Part shown: piece after piece, positions 24,657-32,150 of the stretch
How positions within the stretch are numbered: position 1 is the first letter of the stretch
Layout: each line of letters starts with the position of its first letter
Source of the DNA: Fimbriimonas ginsengisoli Gsoil 348
GTDB lineage: Bacteria > Armatimonadota > Fimbriimonadia > Fimbriimonadales > Fimbriimonadaceae
Length of the DNA: 64,000 bases
Assembly (NCBI RefSeq): GCF_000724625.1
Contig: NZ_CP007139.1
Coordinates: forward strand, 1,178,001-1,242,000
Direction of reading: 5' to 3'
Notes under the pieces: model-generated
The model's input: only the letters and a program-made list of their open reading frames with translations
Database searches by the model: none
What the model was told of the DNA's origin: nothing
Translations under genes and position numbers: made by a program

Positions 24657-24905
24657 GTGGCATCTGGCCCGAACTACTCGGCGCTAACGGCGCCGATGTC
24701 TTTCATCCATGGTGATGCAGACGGCGTGCGCCTCGAGCACCTCGCGGAGATGTCTCGCCTCAAAGGTGGCGAGACCCACGGGGACATGGGACCGCGCTCC
24801 ACATCGCGCTTGGCCATCTTGCCCGACACCACCCCCTAAACCCTGATGCAGAGCATGCCAATCATCGTCCCAATGGTGAACGACTTTCTCGACGCTAAGC
24901 CGTAG
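24657..24905 (+). pseudogene. C-terminal remnant of an alpha/beta hydrolase
   Basis: The frame reads [23 protein letters not shown], then [10 protein letters not shown], a stop at 24837-24839, then in the same frame TLMQSMPIIVPMVNDFLDAKP and a final stop at 24903-24905. This is the C-terminal 80 residues of a common alpha/beta hydrolase family ([19 protein letters not shown], PMVxxFLDA), in which the TAA replaces the residue after the catalytic-His position, and that His itself reads Pro. The N-terminal two thirds with the nucleophile elbow are absent. A dead fragment at the edge of the island-like region. Confidence 0.7.
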
Positions 24906-24986
24906 CCTTGCTACGGCTGCGCGGTTTAGCGAACGCGAAAGCATGCCTAAGGTTGGCGGAAAGGGCCGATTTAGGTTCAACTTTGT

Positions 24987-25012
24987 TGGTGGGCCGTACA
25001 GGACTTCAATCC
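24987..25012 (-). other. tRNA 3'-end fragment, possible attachment-site remnant
   Basis: On the minus strand this ends TCCTGTACGGCCCACCA, which matches the tRNA 3' fragment at 31895 at 16 of 17 positions, including CCA, and resembles the acceptor end of the nearby tRNA-Val. No 5' half of a tRNA is present. It lies in the same orientation as the other fragment and bounds the segment that carries ietAS. Confidence 0.5.
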
Positions 25013-25131
25013 ATAATCTATGCCCCTCCAGCGTGAACGAGTCAGGTCGACCGCTTACCACTCCGCATCAGATTCAAAAAACCATCATAGGAGGGTTTGG
25101 AAGGGCGCTATTGTGGTGCCTCGTGTCGTGG

Positions 25132-25155
25132 CGTTTGCTCAAAGTTGAGCAAACG
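25132..25155 (-). terminator. Perfect 11-bp inverted repeat downstream of ietS
   Basis: CGTTTGCTCAA (25132-25142) and TTGAGCAAACG (25145-25155) are exact reverse complements with a 2-nt centre, 20 nt beyond the ietS stop. It may act as terminator or as a protein site. The gap 24906-25174 holds otherwise only the tRNA fragment. Confidence 0.45.
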
Positions 25156-25174
25156 AATCCAAGGCGGAGGACTG

Positions 25175-27490
25175 TCAGGACTCTTTAGTGGATGTGTTGA
25201 TTTCGATTGGAGTGGCGATCTGGTTCGCAACGGGGGTGTAGATGTCTACCCTCTCCGAGGGACTGTGAATTGAAACGACCAGGGCGTATCGGGCAGTCTT
25301 GGACCATCGGCCGACATGGGGGCGCAACTTCCACCATCCCGTAACGGGAAGGATTGCGACCAAATTTGAGGCGGCGAGTTCCGCAGCCGTCCCCTTCCAA
25401 AGGTCAGAGTGAACAGAGCCCTTATCTCTCTGCTGTCCCAGATGCCAATGCTCGTTTGGAGCCGAAGTATCGCCACCCTCAAAGTCTTTATCCCGAACTT
25501 CCTTGTTGATCCGCTCATGGAATTCGTTCTCACTTTCATTCGGCGAGTTCAGAGTGAAGCGTAATCCATGCGAGGCGTAGCTATATCTTTCGCGCCAACC
25601 ACGCTCGCCTGGGTTGGGTTCAACGAAATACGAAAGAGTTATTCGCATTTCAACCGGTGTCTCGCCAAGTTCGGAGAGTGCTTCTTTCGGCCACGGAAGA
25701 CGGTAGAAGTGGAGATCACCTGTTGCAATCGTTCCCTTCTCGTTCCGGGCAAATGGGCGCAACTCGTCTTGAGCAACGATGGTGAGGCGATTGGTCAAAC
25801 AGCTTGTCGCCCGCTCAAAATTTGGCACACCGTATCCGCAGACCCGAAGTAGCTGACGATAGCTCCCCTTAGCCTCGCTACTCAAGAACTGAGTCCGCAT
25901 AGCTGGAGTCCATTCGGCTGAGTGAACGATCAGCGCTCTAAGGGTTTCAGGCCAGAGGTCGGGATACCGGGCCCATATGGAAGCAGCAAAGTTTGCTCCC
26001 TCGGCTGTCGCTGCACTGGTGCCATCGAAGGACATGAAGTGGCGGACAAGGATGTTCCGAGCGGTAGACAAAGGCTTCAGGTCATCGACATCGTCAGCTC
26101 TGCCAGTTGGCGACAGCGCGGCATTACCACCTTCGAACACCACATCTGGCTTTACAGGCCACTTCGACTGCCAAGTGAGAGAAGTCGTGCTGAAAGGAGA
26201 AAGACCACCGGCAGAAGCGATTGGAGAGTGACCGTCCCAATCAGGTGAGTGGATATGAACCTTCGTTGTGTAGGCTCCTATGGTCAGGGCGTTCCATGAT
26301 TGACCAGGATCGTGAACGCTTTTGGTCAGATTACTGGCGGGGTAGTTGGCCCATTCCGCCCTCTCGCCTATGTTCCCACCACTAACGAGCACTAAGCGGC
26401 GATGGTCGTCCAAAGCGCCGGATGTCAACTGATCAAGCTCTGCGGACCATGAAGTAGGCCTTCCTTCGTCCCGCGTTTCCTCGTCCGTGACCGCCATGCA
26501 AATAACGCGCTTTCGGTTTGGTGCGGCCATTTCTGCAAGGGCAATACCTTGCGCCGTCACGTGCCCGTACAATTCAGGAGGATTCTTGCCGCCCGGTGGG
26601 AGAATTTTTGCCGATTCCAAGCGGTGACCAACGTGCAGTCTTTCCGAATTCACCAGCGCTAAGTGGAGGTCGCCGTACCCGGCAATTCCCGCCATTCCCG
26701 TTCCATGCCCATCGTGGTCAGCGACACCCCAGGCCGGATCGAACGCGTGCAGGTCGGTTAGAGACGTGATTGGAGTGAGGAGTGGATGACCTGCGTTCAC
26801 GCCACTGTCCAGAATACAAACCGCAACGTTGGCCGAGTCCTCGAACTCCGTACGGTCGAGAAGCTCTTTGACCCATTCGGTTTGCTCTGCATTGTCAAGT
26901 TCCGTGAAAAAGGTCGATGCTTCCCGTGCAGAACGGAACTCAGCGAGGTGGTCAGAATGGTCAATCAGTCTTACCAGGTCATCGTGGTTGGCGTGAATGA
27001 GCAGTACAATTCGTTCAGGAAACTTGATGAGCGCTGAGCGTGGATGTTCGCTGATCCCAAGTTTCGCCATTGTCGCTCGGAAGGCTCTGACCGTCTCTTG
27101 GTCTTCGGTCGAAAGCCAGACCTCAATGAACATGGGGTGAATCCCAGGCATCAGGTCGGGATCGTCGGTCCACAGGTCATTTAGAAAGGCGACGCGAATG
27201 TCATTGAGGTTGGTGACGAGACTCTCGTTCTTCGGTCGTCCGCTTCGCTTGTCGTCTTCAGATTCGTACGCCTTGATCTTGTTGAGGAAATAGGACCTTT
27301 TGCCTTTCGGCACGTAAGCCGTCGCGATCACCTGATCGCCGTCTCCGTCTTGGAAGGAACGAACGTTTAGAAGTCGAATACCCGAACCCCGACTTTCAAG
27401 GCTTTGCACAGGAAGACTGGCTGTTCCAACAAACTCGACGTACACTCCATCTCGGCTCGAATGGGCGACAGCAAGCCTTTCCCCTGCCAT
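25175..27490 (-). CDS. ietS: Subtilisin-like serine protease of the IetAS anti-phage system
   Basis: 771 residues from ATG 27490. Catalytic triad of an S8 peptidase: Asp in VAVCILDSGVN near residue 226, His in DHDGHGTGMAG near 262, Ser in FDGTSAATAEGANFAA near 492. The N-terminal 200 residues (YVEFVGTASLPVQSLESRGSGIRLLNVR) and the C-terminal beta-rich domain match the cytosolic S8 partner of AAA ATPases known as IetS. IetAS was first seen as a plasmid stability locus in Agrobacterium and later reported as an anti-phage system. Homologous-looking sequence continues upstream in frame to 27625, so this ATG is probably not the native start. GC is clearly lower than in neighbouring genes, a sign of transfer. 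Confidence 0.88.
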   Translation of the reverse strand: MAGERLAVAHSSRDGVYVEFVGTASLPVQSLESRGSGIRLLNVRSFQDGDGDQVIATAYVPKGKRSYFLNKIKAYESEDDKRSGRPKNESLVTNLNDIRVAFLNDLWTDDPDLMPGIHPMFIEVWLSTEDQETVRAFRATMAKLGISEHPRSALIKFPERIVLLIHANHDDLVRLIDHSDHLAEFRSAREASTFFTELDNAEQTEWVKELLDRTEFEDSANVAVCILDSGVNAGHPLLTPITSLTDLHAFDPAWGVADHDGHGTGMAGIAGYGDLHLALVNSERLHVGHRLESAKILPPGGKNPPELYGHVTAQGIALAEMAAPNRKRVICMAVTDEETRDEGRPTSWSAELDQLTSGALDDHRRLVLVSGGNIGERAEWANYPASNLTKSVHDPGQSWNALTIGAYTTKVHIHSPDWDGHSPIASAGGLSPFSTTSLTWQSKWPVKPDVVFEGGNAALSPTGRADDVDDLKPLSTARNILVRHFMSFDGTSAATAEGANFAASIWARYPDLWPETLRALIVHSAEWTPAMRTQFLSSEAKGSYRQLLRVCGYGVPNFERATSCLTNRLTIVAQDELRPFARNEKGTIATGDLHFYRLPWPKEALSELGETPVEMRITLSYFVEPNPGERGWRERYSYASHGLRFTLNSPNESENEFHERINKEVRDKDFEGGDTSAPNEHWHLGQQRDKGSVHSDLWKGTAAELAASNLVAILPVTGWWKLRPHVGRWSKTARYALVVSIHSPSERVDIYTPVANQIATPIEINTSTKES

Positions 27491-27624
27491 ATCCCATGCG
27501 GAAGAGAACCTCGAACTCAGGAGTTGGGCGTGTTCAGCCCGCTCGCGCTTTACAATGTTCCGAGCAATAACAACCTTCCGGGGATTCGTGTATGAGACTT
27601 CGTCTGGATGCCCAGGAAGAATGA

Positions 27625-28617
27625 TTAGAGGGAATTTGTTGATTCGGATCGCCTTTGACCTCCGTGTCCGTGGTGCCGCTCACTCATGGCCCGGTTCAAA
27701 TCGATCGCAGAAACGTTCTTAAGATCACCAAGAACAGCTTCCTTGAGTGCGTCTCGACACGCCTCGACGACCTCGGCGCTACTGAGCCCCTTGCTCCCGT
27801 CAATCGCTGTTTTCCAGCCGAAACGAGACCCCCTGAAGGTGCCAAGCGTGTTCGCAATAAGGCGCTTACGTTCGTCGTCGCTCGGAAGCGCATAGGAAAG
27901 AATATCGTCAAACCGCCGGAATAGAGCGTGGTCAAGCAACTCAGGCGTGTTTGTCGAGGCGATGATGATGCTGTCCGAGGAGTCTCCCTCGATGAACTGA
28001 AGGAGGGCGGTTAGGACCCGGCGCATCTCCCCAACGTCGTTGTCTCGCGTCCTGCCGGCGGCGAGAGCGTCGAATTCATCAAACAGGTATACACCCTCCC
28101 TCTCGCGGATCATCTCAAACATCAGGCGGAGCCGAGCGCCTGTCTCTCCCATGAACTTCGTCACCAGTCGATCCGCTTGGACAGTGAACAATGGTAGCCG
28201 TAATTCGTGGGCCAGAACGCGAGCGGTCAGTGTCTTCCCTGTCCCAGGAGGGCCGGTAAGCAGAATCTTCCGTCGATGGGACAATCCATGGAGGCGAAGT
28301 TTGTCGCGCTGTCGATATTCGCTAATGACCCGGTGAATCCTATCCAACAAACTCGTAGGCAGCACGAGAGCGGACAAGGGTACACCAGGCAAATCAGCTT
28401 CGATCAGGGTGTCCAATTCGGTGGGTAGACCTTGGACCGTGCGACGTTTTTTCTCGGAGCGAGCACGATCAACCAGGTCGCGAATCTCGTGTGCGAGAGG
28501 TCCGTGCCCCTGCTTCGCCTCGTGCGCCGCGACCTGCAAGGCAAGCGTGAAGAAACGTTCCGAGTCGTCGCTTAGGTGCGACCTGATCAACGCCTTAATC
28601 TGCTCAGCGGTCGCCAT
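27625..28617 (-). CDS. ietA: AAA+ ATPase of the IetAS anti-phage system
   Basis: 330 residues from ATG 28617, with AGGGAAG 4-10 nt upstream. Helical N-terminal domain, then an AAA core: Walker A GPPGTGKT near residue 120, Walker B YLFDEFDAL near 177, sensor 1 in IIIASTNTPELLD, arginine-finger region LFRRFDD and sensor 2 in GLSSAEVVEACRDA. Orthologous in layout to the ATPase that precedes cytosolic S8 subtilases. It is expected to control or deliver substrates to the protease after phage infection; the trigger is unknown. Its stop touches the beginning of the ietS coding frame, so the two form one translational unit. Confidence 0.88.
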   Translation of the reverse strand: MATAEQIKALIRSHLSDDSERFFTLALQVAAHEAKQGHGPLAHEIRDLVDRARSEKKRRTVQGLPTELDTLIEADLPGVPLSALVLPTSLLDRIHRVISEYRQRDKLRLHGLSHRRKILLTGPPGTGKTLTARVLAHELRLPLFTVQADRLVTKFMGETGARLRLMFEMIREREGVYLFDEFDALAAGRTRDNDVGEMRRVLTALLQFIEGDSSDSIIIASTNTPELLDHALFRRFDDILSYALPSDDERKRLIANTLGTFRGSRFGWKTAIDGSKGLSSAEVVEACRDALKEAVLGDLKNVSAIDLNRAMSERHHGHGGQRRSESTNSL

Positions 28618-28639
28618 TGTCTTCCCTCAGCTTACATGA

Positions 28640-28975
28640 GGAGACGTTGATTCGGCTCGCTTCGGAGCGGCTATCGCCGACACGAAACGCGGGAAGGTCC
28701 TCGATCTAAAAAACGCGCGGCTGACGACTCTTCATGATGGGACCAACTCGTTTGCATGTAGCCAACCACCTGGCAGCTCTGACGACCCCTTCAGCGATGC
28801 CGAAGTGTCAACCAACAAATTTGAACCCAAGAAGCGGCCGAGATTGTATTTGGTCGCTCAAATATCCGAGAGGCTAATTGAGGGTCGCAACGCGCTAGAG
28901 CCTCAGGCAGGCGGTTCCACATTCAGATTCCTGGATGCAATACGGAAATCGAACATGTGTCCCCCGTCCGTGTGA
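28640..28975 (+). other. Gene-poor stretch with a start-less open frame
   Basis: The 581-base gap 28618-29198 holds one notable item: a plus-strand frame open for 111 codons (28640-28975) without ATG, GTG or TTG in its first 58 codons. Its translation resembles nothing familiar. It may be the tail of a decayed gene at the ietAS boundary, or chance. Base composition is lower in G+C than the flanking genes. Confidence 0.25.
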
Positions 28976-29184
28976 ATGATAAGATGCGCCGTTCTCCACT
29001 CCATTTTGAGTTCAGGACCGACCCGTAATGTCCCCATCCGTTTCGCCAATTGAGCGCCCTTCGAGTGACCGTGGCCACATTGGGGCAGGAATCGAAAGCC
29101 GAGAAGATCTCGGGACCGCGACCCACGGTCGAGTCGAACAACCGAGCTGGCACAGTGTCCGAGGCTGAATGTTTCCACTCATGG

Positions 29185-29190
29185 TAATAT
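29185..29190 (+). promoter_or_regulatory. -10 box placed for a near-leaderless transcript
   Basis: TAATAT ends 8 nt before ATG 29199, giving a leader of about 2 nt. No Shine-Dalgarno precedes the start. Confidence 0.45.
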
Positions 29191-29198
29191 AACCAACA

Positions 29199-29768
29199 AT
29201 GGAAATGACGGGCGACAGCCGCTCCAAGATATCGCTGGTGACCCACCCGGTTCGGGCGAGGGTTCTGCTGACCTTGATGAGGCGCGAACTTACCACGCAG
29301 GAGATGGCGGATCTTTTGCCCGATGTTTCGAAGACGTCCCTCTACCGGCATATCCGCGAGCTCGCGGAGGCGGGGGTTATCAAGGTGGTCGGCGAGACGG
29401 CGATACGAGGAACCGTCGAGAAGCGGTTTGCGGTTCAGTCCAACGCCGTGACGTTTTCAAACGAGGACCTGCTCGACGCCGGGCACGAGGAGTACTTGCG
29501 GCTCATAAGCGGGCTGCTGGAAAGCGTCTTGGCCGTCGTTCAAGGCTATCTTGCGCGTAAGGAGCCCACGCTGGCGGAGGATACGCTGTTTCGGGTCAAT
29601 GCGGCGAACCTCACCGACGAGGAGTTTTGGGCCCTTCGAAAGCAACTGACCGATCTGCTTTCCTCGGCTCGCGATAACCCAGCCGCACCGGGCAGGCGCA
29701 GGCGCGTGATCAGCCTGCTCGCGGTCCCCGATGAAGGCCCTGTCTCCAAAGAGGAGGCAGAAAAGTGA
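29199..29768 (+). CDS. Winged helix-turn-helix (ArsR-like) transcriptional regulator
   Basis: 189 residues. Residues 8-80 are a winged-helix domain: SLVTHPVRARVLLTLMRRELTTQEMADLLP, recognition helix SKTSLYRHIRELAEAGVI and wing VVGETAIRGTVEKRFAV. This is the HTH_20/ArsR-like subgroup without metal-binding cysteines. The C-terminal half is helical and probably dimerises. Its stop overlaps the start of the M13 peptidase gene (GTGA at 29765-29768), so it likely regulates that peptidase or responds to peptides it produces. Confidence 0.85.
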   Translation: MEMTGDSRSKISLVTHPVRARVLLTLMRRELTTQEMADLLPDVSKTSLYRHIRELAEAGVIKVVGETAIRGTVEKRFAVQSNAVTFSNEDLLDAGHEEYLRLISGLLESVLAVVQGYLARKEPTLAEDTLFRVNAANLTDEEFWALRKQLTDLLSSARDNPAAPGRRRRVISLLAVPDEGPVSKEEAEK

Positions 29769-31798
29769 AGCTCATCGCGGCTCTTCTATTCTTGACCGCA
29801 CACGGCCAAACGCAAAGCGGGACGGCTTTCGGGACTTGGGGCATCGAAATCGAGCGCATCAGCAAGACCGTCCGCCCCGGAGACGACTTCTTCACGTACG
29901 TCAATGAGGGTTGGCTCAAATCGACCCGAATCCCCGATGGCTATTGGGACTACGGGCAGACGTCGATTCTCGAAGCCGACGTCAAGCGAGAAGTGCGGGA
30001 GATCGTCCAGGAGGCCGTAAAGAGCTCGGCTGCCGCCGGAGATCCTCGCCGCCTGATCCGAGACCTCTACAAGAGCTACGTGGACACCGCTCGTGTCGAA
30101 CAGCTTGGCTTGGCTCCCATCCGCGCCGACCTGGGCCGAATCCTAAAGATCGAGACTCGTGAGGAAGCCGCAAGGTGGATGGCCGACCCGAGGTCTAGCT
30201 GTCTCTTCAACACCTACGTCTTTCTCGACGATGGAAACACCAATCGCCGGCTCGTGCACTTCGATCAACAGGACCTGGGTCAACAACCCTTCCTAGGTTT
30301 GCCTCAACCCGAATACTACAGTCGAACGGACGGCGCCTACCCGGATCACCGCAAGGCCTACTACGCCTACCTGGTTAAGATCTTCGAATTCGCCCAGATC
30401 GACCGGCCGCAGCAACGCGCCGAAGAGGTCCTCTCGTTTGAGACGAAGATTGCCGCTCCGCACTGGAATATCGAGCAGCTCCGCGACCGAAAAGCCAACT
30501 ACCACCTCCTGTCCGTACAGGGCCTGAAAGCCTTCGCCCCCGGCTTCCCCTGGCAGACCTTCCTTTCCGCGAAGAAGCTTGGAGCCGTACGCGAGGTCAT
30601 CCTCGGAACCGACACCGCCGTACAAGCCGCCGCAAAGATCTTCGGGGACGCCCCGCTCGACACGCTGACAAGCTACCTGGCCTTCCACTGGATTCAGAAC
30701 CAGATCAACTTTCTCCCCTCATCGTTTCGATCCGCGAGTTTCGAGTTCTACAACAAGCGGTTTTGGGGTCAGAAAACGCCGCCGCGTCGAGACGACGAGG
30801 CGTTCGACTTCGTGAATCGCCAAGTCAGGGAAGCCGTCGGCAAACTTTACGTCCAGCGATACTTTCCCGCCTCCAGTCGAGCCCGCGCGGAGGAGCTGTT
30901 CGGCTACCTGCGCCGCGCGCTTAGACAGAGGATAGCGACCGTGGACTGGATGGATGCGAGCACTCGCTCCGAAGCGGAAGCCAAAGTGGCAAGCTATCGA
31001 TTCAAGGTGGGGTATCCGAACAAGTGGCGCGACTACAGCGGAGTGGCCATTCGCCAAGACGATCTGATCGGAAACGCAAGACGGCTGAAGGCGTTCGACT
31101 GGGCCCAAGAGCGCGCTTTACTGAAGGCCGGCCATGAAGCCCTCGGCTGGAACGACTCGCCCCAGACCGTCAATGCCAGCTACAGCCCCCAGATGAACGC
31201 CATTGAGCTCCCTGCCGCCTTCCTGCAGCCGCCGTTCTTCGACGCGAACGCCGACCCGGCCGTCAACTTCGGCTCGATCGGAGCGATCATCGGCCACGAA
31301 ATGGGCCACGGCTTCGACGATCAGGGATCGCACTTCGATTCCAAAGGCATCCTCCGCGACTGGTGGACCGCCAAGTCCGCGCAAGGCTTCAGAGATCGCA
31401 CGAACACGCTCGTCGGGCAGTACGACGCCTACACCCCGTACCCGGGCCTGCACCTCAACGGCAAGCTGTCCCTCGGTGAAAACATCGGCGACCTGAGCGG
31501 CGTATCGATCGCCTACCGCGCCTACCGCCTCTACCTAGACGACCACCCGGATCAGAAGGACAAGGTGCGTGACGGCTTCACCGACGACCAAAGATTCTTC
31601 CTATCCTGGGCGCAAACGTGGCGCTACCTCGCGCCCGAAAGCGCCATCCGCTACATCGTCCAAAACGGCTACCACAGCCCGGCGCCCTACCGTGTGAACG
31701 GGGTCGTCCGCAACATCGACGCTTGGTATAAGGCGTTCAACGTGACACCTGACCAGAAGCTCTATCTTGCTCCCACCGAGCGGGTTCATCTTTGGTAA
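29765..31798 (+). CDS. M13 family (neprilysin/PepO-like) zinc metallopeptidase, secreted
   Basis: 677 residues, normal for M13. A short signal peptide (KLIAALLFLTAHGQT) precedes the mature start. IERISKTVRPGDDFFTYVNEGW marks the M13 N-domain. Zinc site: HEMGH near residue 511 in IGHEMGHGFDDQGSHFD, with the third ligand Glu in GENIGDLSG near 571. NASYSPQMNAIELPAAFLQPPFF and the C-terminal AFNV...LAPTERVHLW are also characteristic. Cleaves oligopeptides outside the cytoplasm. Co-transcribed with the winged-helix regulator in front of it. Confidence 0.95.
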   Translation: MKLIAALLFLTAHGQTQSGTAFGTWGIEIERISKTVRPGDDFFTYVNEGWLKSTRIPDGYWDYGQTSILEADVKREVREIVQEAVKSSAAAGDPRRLIRDLYKSYVDTARVEQLGLAPIRADLGRILKIETREEAARWMADPRSSCLFNTYVFLDDGNTNRRLVHFDQQDLGQQPFLGLPQPEYYSRTDGAYPDHRKAYYAYLVKIFEFAQIDRPQQRAEEVLSFETKIAAPHWNIEQLRDRKANYHLLSVQGLKAFAPGFPWQTFLSAKKLGAVREVILGTDTAVQAAAKIFGDAPLDTLTSYLAFHWIQNQINFLPSSFRSASFEFYNKRFWGQKTPPRRDDEAFDFVNRQVREAVGKLYVQRYFPASSRARAEELFGYLRRALRQRIATVDWMDASTRSEAEAKVASYRFKVGYPNKWRDYSGVAIRQDDLIGNARRLKAFDWAQERALLKAGHEALGWNDSPQTVNASYSPQMNAIELPAAFLQPPFFDANADPAVNFGSIGAIIGHEMGHGFDDQGSHFDSKGILRDWWTAKSAQGFRDRTNTLVGQYDAYTPYPGLHLNGKLSLGENIGDLSGVSIAYRAYRLYLDDHPDQKDKVRDGFTDDQRFFLSWAQTWRYLAPESAIRYIVQNGYHSPAPYRVNGVVRNIDAWYKAFNVTPDQKLYLAPTERVHLW

Positions 31799-31894
31799 AC
31801 CGGCTTACCGTTGATTAAGAGACCCATTGAGTGGCCGGCACTCATAATCTTCTGCACGAGCGGGCCATTGGGATTGTTTCTTAGCCGTGCAAAT

Positions 31895-31928
31895 TGGTGG
31901 GCGGTACAGGATTTGAACCTGTGACCCC
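31895..31928 (-). other. Displaced tRNA 3' half (T-arm and acceptor with CCA)
   Basis: Minus strand reads GGGGTC, ACAGG-TTCAAAT-CCTGT, ACCGCCC, ACCA: a complete T-arm and 3' acceptor strand with encoded CCA. There is no matching 5' half. The acceptor strand would pair perfectly with the 5' end of the tRNA-Val located 53 nt upstream on the same strand, so it may be the original 3' end of that gene, displaced by an insertion. Confidence 0.6.
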
Positions 31929-31980
31929 TTCCACCTTCGCTCTTCGAGCTTCGGCGGACGAGTTGGGGTGGCTGAGAGAG

Positions 31981-32052
31981 TGGGCGATATAGGACTTGAA
32001 CCTACGACCCCCAGAATGTGAAACTGGTGCTCTACCACTGAGCTAACCGCCC
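31981..32052 (-). tRNA. tRNA-Val (anticodon CAC)
   Basis: 72 nt, minus strand, from GGGCGGT at 32052 to the discriminator A at 31981. Acceptor GGGCGGT/ATCGCCC (one G-U), D-arm GCTC-AGTGGTA-GAGC, anticodon arm CCAGT-TTCACAT-TCTGG with anticodon CAC and a T-T mismatch at the loop-closing pair, 5-nt variable loop, T-arm GTAGG-TTCAAGT-CCTAT. CCA is not encoded. The mismatch and the missing CCA contrast with the well-formed 3' half lying downstream. Confidence 0.88.
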
Positions 32053-32150
32053 GCTCTCTCTCTTTTCTGGCTCTCGGAGTGAACGACGTGCTAAAGCTGA
32101 GCCGCTCTGCCGAACCGGGGTTGATGATACCCAAAGGGGAGTTCCGAGAG

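Follow-up and report, generated by a model that had tools for sequence, protein, structure and literature searches.

In this study we describe a tRNA-Val(CAC) gene of Fimbriimonas ginsengisoli Gsoil 348 that may have acted as a repeated insertion site, with the gene pair ietAS as acquired cargo beside it. One scar next to the gene would stem from an older tRNA that was split, and a second, distant fragment from another event; we give this reading a probability of about one half. The genome is a single contig of 5,231,762 bp, equal to the published size (PMC4072686). The window, to which all unlabelled coordinates refer, is the whole stretch of 64,000 nucleotides that was analysed. Genomes are designated by G codes (F. 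ginsengisoli being G000) and loci in various genomes by L codes.

The tRNA-Val(CAC) gene and its fragments

Read along the minus strand, the intact tRNA-Val(CAC) gene is followed downstream by a hairpin, a tRNA 3' half, the oppositely oriented M13 peptidase operon, the ietA and ietS genes, a far tRNA fragment and a hydrolase remnant. The features are, in window order:

24678-24908, plus strand: C-terminal remnant of an alpha/beta hydrolase (73% identity over 74 amino acids to an intact hydrolase of G014)
24987-25009, minus strand: far tRNA-Val 3'-end fragment comprising part of the T-arm, the acceptor and CCA (21/23 to tRNA-Val(GAC))
25175-27490, minus strand: ietS, S8 subtilase-family protease (PADLOC IetS, E 5.3e-35; Pfam Peptidase_S8, E 6.6e-60)
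27625-28617, minus strand: ietA, AAA+ ATPase (PADLOC IetA, E 3.8e-72; Pfam AAA, E 2.5e-30)
29199-29768, plus strand: helix-turn-helix (ArsR/HTH_20-like) regulator (Pfam HTH_20), overlapping the start of the M13 gene
29765-31798, plus strand: M13 metallopeptidase (Pfam PF05649/PF01431; GC3 0.77)
31895-31928, minus strand: near tRNA-Val 3' half with CCA, of an older or other tRNA-Val type (33/34 to the genome's own tRNA-Val(GAC))
31931-31957, minus strand: imperfect hairpin CCGCCGAAGCTCGAAGAGCGAAGGTGG, immediately before the near 3' half (weak, z -0.96)
31980-32052, minus strand: intact tRNA-Val(CAC) with a CCAG-type anticodon stem (ARAGORN)
32074-32117, minus strand: degenerate 5' half of an older-type tRNA-Val(CAC), including the anticodon arm GCACGTCGTTCACTCCGA (local alignment score 28)

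The initial annotation had noted a 3' half with CCA and a second fragment near 24987 that matches it at 16 of 17 positions, and both of these proved to be real. The near half, which ends in ACCGCCCACCA, agrees at all 34 bases with the tRNA-Val(CAC) of G017 and G034. The far fragment reads TTGAAGTCCTGTACGGCCCACCA on the minus strand. Its alignment score of 36 lies above the random level (300 shuffles of the 11.9 kb around it reached at most 28), and by an arithmetic estimate a 21/23 match would be expected by chance about 3e-4 times per genome. The 16-base core CCTGTACSGCCCACCA is present in only three copies in the genome: in tRNA-Val(GAC), in the near fragment and in the far fragment. The near fragment is part of a unit of about 85 bp that adjoins the tRNA and is separate from the 6.9-kb interval; next to the far fragment a palindrome is absent.

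In our analysis we also found the degenerate 5' half, which had been overlooked before (p about 0.0005 by shuffling). It sits 21 bp upstream of the intact gene and is of the same older type as the near 3' half. With a 5' half upstream and a 3' half downstream that share this type, the intact tRNA is most simply read as lying inside a split older tRNA-Val, as one degenerate match suggests. An insert of about 145 bp carrying the present intact tRNA-Val(CAC) would have interrupted the older gene close to the 3' side of the anticodon stem, and the near scar and the upstream 5' half would be what is left of that older gene. The far fragment would then be the scar of a separate event, with ietAS within the resulting interval. 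The tRNA-Val of the window has probably been hit more than once. No 5'-half remnants were found upstream of the same tRNA-Val(CAC) in G004, G012 and G040.

These three genomes are the nearest relatives with a CCAG-type tRNA-Val(CAC), and they bear on the simple att geometry. The window gene ends in ATCGCCCA, followed by CTCTCTC, and does not encode CCA. The initial annotation had predicted that the tRNA-Val of an empty site should end in ACCGCCCACCA; this failed, as the genes of all three relatives end in ATCGCCCA too. The near fragment is therefore not the displaced native end of the window gene and belongs to another tRNA-Val type, and the simple att model is not supported. When we searched the relatives for an empty site, we found no true one, as only about 75-90 bp of DNA similarity were shared around the gene. 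G004 does not qualify, for both flanks differ although the tRNA is 98% identical and free of fragments. The CCAG-type gene has different surroundings in each of these four related genomes, which look as though the tRNA gene itself had moved. In the window and in G004 it lacks an encoded CCA, and its acceptor stem is prolonged by GAGAGAG/CTCTCTC flanks.

ietAS and the genes around it

The window carries the gene for an IetA AAA+ ATPase and, adjacent and co-directional on the minus strand, that for an IetS subtilase-like protease. By family membership the two proteins would form a two-protein anti-phage system. The arrangement is that of the IetAS system in PADLOC, with the genes for an AAA+ ATPase and an S8 subtilase next to each other and strong profile matches, but the IetS of the window is moderately diverged, and the tRNA linkage seen in the class is absent from the system definition. 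The lower GC content of the pair reported earlier was borne out, with GC3 values of 0.58 (ietS) and 0.64 (ietA) versus 0.72-0.79 in the neighbours. The ietS frame is open upstream of its listed start, to about 27679 (window 27490-27679); relatives suggest a longer IetS N-terminus that overlaps the end of ietA.

Relatives of IetS (E < 1e-40) were found in three of 113 class genomes (G000, G014 and G064), and not everywhere among the relatives. In all three carriers the pair is tRNA-linked: near tRNA-Val(CAC) in F. ginsengisoli and G014, and at tRNA-Gln in G064, where the end of ietS is 17 bp from the tRNA. At the G014 site the distance between tRNA-Val(CAC) and ietAS is about 2 kb; two tandem units, each made of a palindrome plus a 3' half, come before the pair, whose orientation is inverted relative to the window. 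Within the class, ietAS is an accessory, acquired, tRNA-linked defence pair. A comparison at the G014 site is offered by its sister species G013, which shares with G014 the tRNA-Val and the flank upstream of it (88% identity), has neither the units nor ietAS, and loses homology to G014 one base past CCA. G013 was rejected as a marker of the distal boundary: its other flank maps to a different G014 contig, so that the distal end of the G014 insertion is not visible.

The dead alpha/beta hydrolase that had been placed outside the far fragment was confirmed. Its 74 C-terminal residues, encoded by 24678-24899, correspond to a gene (76% DNA identity over 216 bp) that is intact in G014 on the far side of ietAS, where no tRNA fragment lies beside it. 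The M13 operon has a native-like composition (GC3 0.76-0.77). We found no close orthologue of the M13 peptidase in 11 same-genus genomes (best 34% identity); for this reason the peptidase provides no synteny anchor, and we discarded it as a marker of the native locus.

Rival origins of the interval

tRNA genes are classic landing sites of integrase islands, and the initial annotation had proposed an integrated island, or several insertions, without a surviving integrase. Part of this stands: ietAS is accessory, deviant in composition and tRNA-linked, and more than one insertion is likely. What does not hold is the simple att geometry, with a near fragment that is not the end of this tRNA. The missing integrase was likewise confirmed, as none was seen among the open reading frames profiled in 24.6-32 kb and the integrase of the type found in the genus (that of G040) had no match in the window (best tblastn E 1.2). 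A classical tyrosine-integrase island would have used the tRNA-Val 3' end as attB and left direct repeats, with later loss of the integrase and ietAS as its cargo. Such islands do exist in the genus: G018 carries one of 44.7 kb at tRNA-Val(GAC), and G040 has a 59%-identical integrase at its own tRNA-Val(GAC). Since the G018 island is a true integrase island, integrase and unit routes both operate at these tRNAs. Also the tRNA-Val(GAC) locus of F. ginsengisoli itself has a fragment that begins at the anticodon loop. The window shares with these islands the tRNA 3'-end direct repeats and the accessory and defence cargo. However, the att repeats at tRNA-Val(GAC) in the genus start at the anticodon loop (in G018 from ATGACAC), whereas in the window the near repeat starts only past the anticodon arm and the far one within the T-arm, and the 3' end of the resident tRNA is the native type of its lineage and not derived from an element. 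With the integrase lacking as well, we consider this origin less likely than repeated insertion of units. The G018 island is bounded by exact 3'-half repeats (L309 2044-3216; repeat at L307 about 1527-1553) and contains a tyrosine integrase, a recombinase-like gene and a gene for a 1515-aa protein.

Less probable still is a local tRNA duplication whose decay left the fragments, with ietAS inserted between them by unrelated recombination. The far fragment is indeed short and without a palindrome, the deviant composition is limited to the ietAS part and spares the M13 operon, and the link between ietAS and the hydrolase is common to G014, where no fragment adjoins the hydrolase. Yet this account has to contend with the tRNA linkage of ietAS in every carrier of the class and with defence genes in three other fragment-bounded intervals, a small number, that were located by their tRNA scraps and not by the defence genes. 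One of them is the tRNA-Val(GAC) locus of F. ginsengisoli (L080), with a palindrome plus 3' half, the fragment from the anticodon loop, AbiEii, AbiEi and a further AbiEi-like gene; on its far side a degenerate 3' half is directly followed by a truncated GIY-YIG frame, a remnant. In G039 type III restriction and modification genes, DUF3800 and a DrmD-like helicase come after a tRNA-Ala unit, and the other end of the interval is formed by a terminal GIY-YIG gene with a palindrome and a partial 3' half. In G004 the interval is bounded by tRNA-Val(GAC) and by an exact 3'-half copy and encodes a TIR protein and an Avs4-like NTPase; it spans two contig ends, so its join is only inferred. That the region is ancestral and not an island at all seems very improbable: the native composition of the M13 operon is the one point found in its favour, and it is opposed by the rarity of ietAS in the class (3/113), the lower GC3 of the pair and the lack of a close M13 orthologue in the 11 same-genus genomes. 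Beside these alternatives we prefer repeated insertion at tRNA-Val(CAC). A 13-bp copy of a tRNA-Val 5' end is also present just upstream of the genome's own tRNA-Val(GAC) (L080 2013-2030).

A family of tRNA, GIY-YIG and palindrome units

In same-genus genomes we found tRNA genes with 5' halves on their upstream side and 3' halves on their downstream side; at the position of the anticodon arm each half has a palindrome, for example TCCCGA..TCGGGA. Free-standing GIY-YIG genes lie directly 3' of tRNA-Ala (L096), tRNA-Val (L121, L095) and tRNA-Ile (L101). In general plan, a unit has an intact tRNA with, in many cases, a small GIY-YIG gene immediately 3' of it; a palindrome and a copy of the tRNA 3' part come next, and some units have a 5' half ahead of the tRNA. 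When 84,980 species genomes were scanned for the GIY-YIG proteins, 80 loci emerged; tRNAs played no part in the scan, and the query proteins themselves had been picked next to tRNAs. At 39 of the 80 loci the GIY-YIG gene is immediately preceded by a same-strand tRNA, where about one such locus would be expected from tRNA density. A 3'-half copy of the same tRNA follows the open reading frame in 27 of these 39, usually with a palindrome replacing the anticodon arm. A 5' half is found upstream in 11 of the tRNA-linked loci and a 3' half upstream in only two. Downstream, 5'-half sequence occurs in 11 GIY-YIG loci, because some copies are near-complete pseudo-tRNAs. For the same reason splitting is not the sole reading of such loci, and a copy carried by the unit fits equally. 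The loci span Armatimonadota, Bacteroidota, Ignavibacteria, Acidobacteria, Verrucomicrobia, Phycisphaerae and others. The exact palindrome pattern gave 32 matches in 15 genomes (113 class and 291 Armatimonadota genomes searched) and none with reversed controls; nearly all matches adjoin tRNAs, and within Armatimonadota they are limited to one family.

The window would be a decayed example of the unit, without GIY-YIG and integrase and with a weak hairpin. The intact tRNA is followed by a 3'-half copy on the same strand (31980-32052 and 31895-31928), and among 46 tRNAs examined in the genome such copies occur at only two, the two tRNA-Val genes. The hairpin occupies the position where related units have the palindrome in place of the anticodon arm, but it is weak and not of the TCCCGA type, and a search of the window for a GIY-YIG remnant gave none. 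Membership of the near scar in the GIY-YIG/palindrome family is plausible. We infer that GIY-YIG would drive the insertion of the units, that such units may have formed the site in the window and that one of the insertion events there may have brought ietAS, for which a since-lost integrase is also a candidate.

A more general scheme can be put forward tentatively. Mobile units spanning phyla might nest into tRNA genes: GIY-YIG would cut the anticodon arm and the unit would supply a replacement tRNA, so that the host survives and the old gene is left as palindrome-capped 5' and 3' halves. Repeated rounds might build arrays able to collect ietAS, AbiE and type III restriction-modification genes. 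If this were true, tRNA-anchored units would include, besides integrase islands, a second kind that does without an integrase, is linked to GIY-YIG and bears its own marks, namely palindromic pseudo-anticodon arms and half-tRNA arrays. These units would provide a new way to locate mobile DNA and defence systems and would account for the half-tRNA arrays passed over by gene finders. A further, testable question is whether mobile units replace the tRNA genes themselves.

The unit resembles known systems in part. Free-standing GIY-YIG homing endonucleases, such as the Seg proteins of T4-like phages, are likewise encoded by small genes beside their target genes. The GIY-YIG genes of the units, at most putative homing genes, instead stand between an intact tRNA and a 3' copy with a palindromic anticodon arm, and they occur in many bacterial phyla. 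A partial likeness may also exist to REP palindromes with their REP-associated tyrosine transposases, in which small dispersed palindromes go with one enzyme gene; the units differ in having GIY-YIG as the enzyme and palindromes set within sequence derived from tRNAs. In open papers on GIY-YIG units in tRNA genes or on tRNA-linked defence islands (with subscription journals and preprints outside the scope) we found no description of this architecture. The family is widespread and apparently undescribed, the literature search being weak evidence of novelty.

Further arrangements were noted in other genomes. In G006 intact tRNA-Val genes are immediately preceded by tandem arrays, each of three tRNA-Val 5' halves with palindromes, with periods of 95 bp and 84 bp (L083 9829-10188; L084 9789-10115). 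In several candidate-phyla-radiation genomes tRNA-Tyr(GTA) is found near GIY-YIG, and a 3'-half copy is absent (L141, L175, L184, L188, L200, L201). The window hairpin was rejected as a family-wide repeat, its sequence type being without tRNA linkage elsewhere in the class; in G042 dispersed CCGCCGAAGC..GCGAAGG hairpins lie within a longer conserved repeat that has no link to tRNAs (L313, L316, L318, L320-L322).
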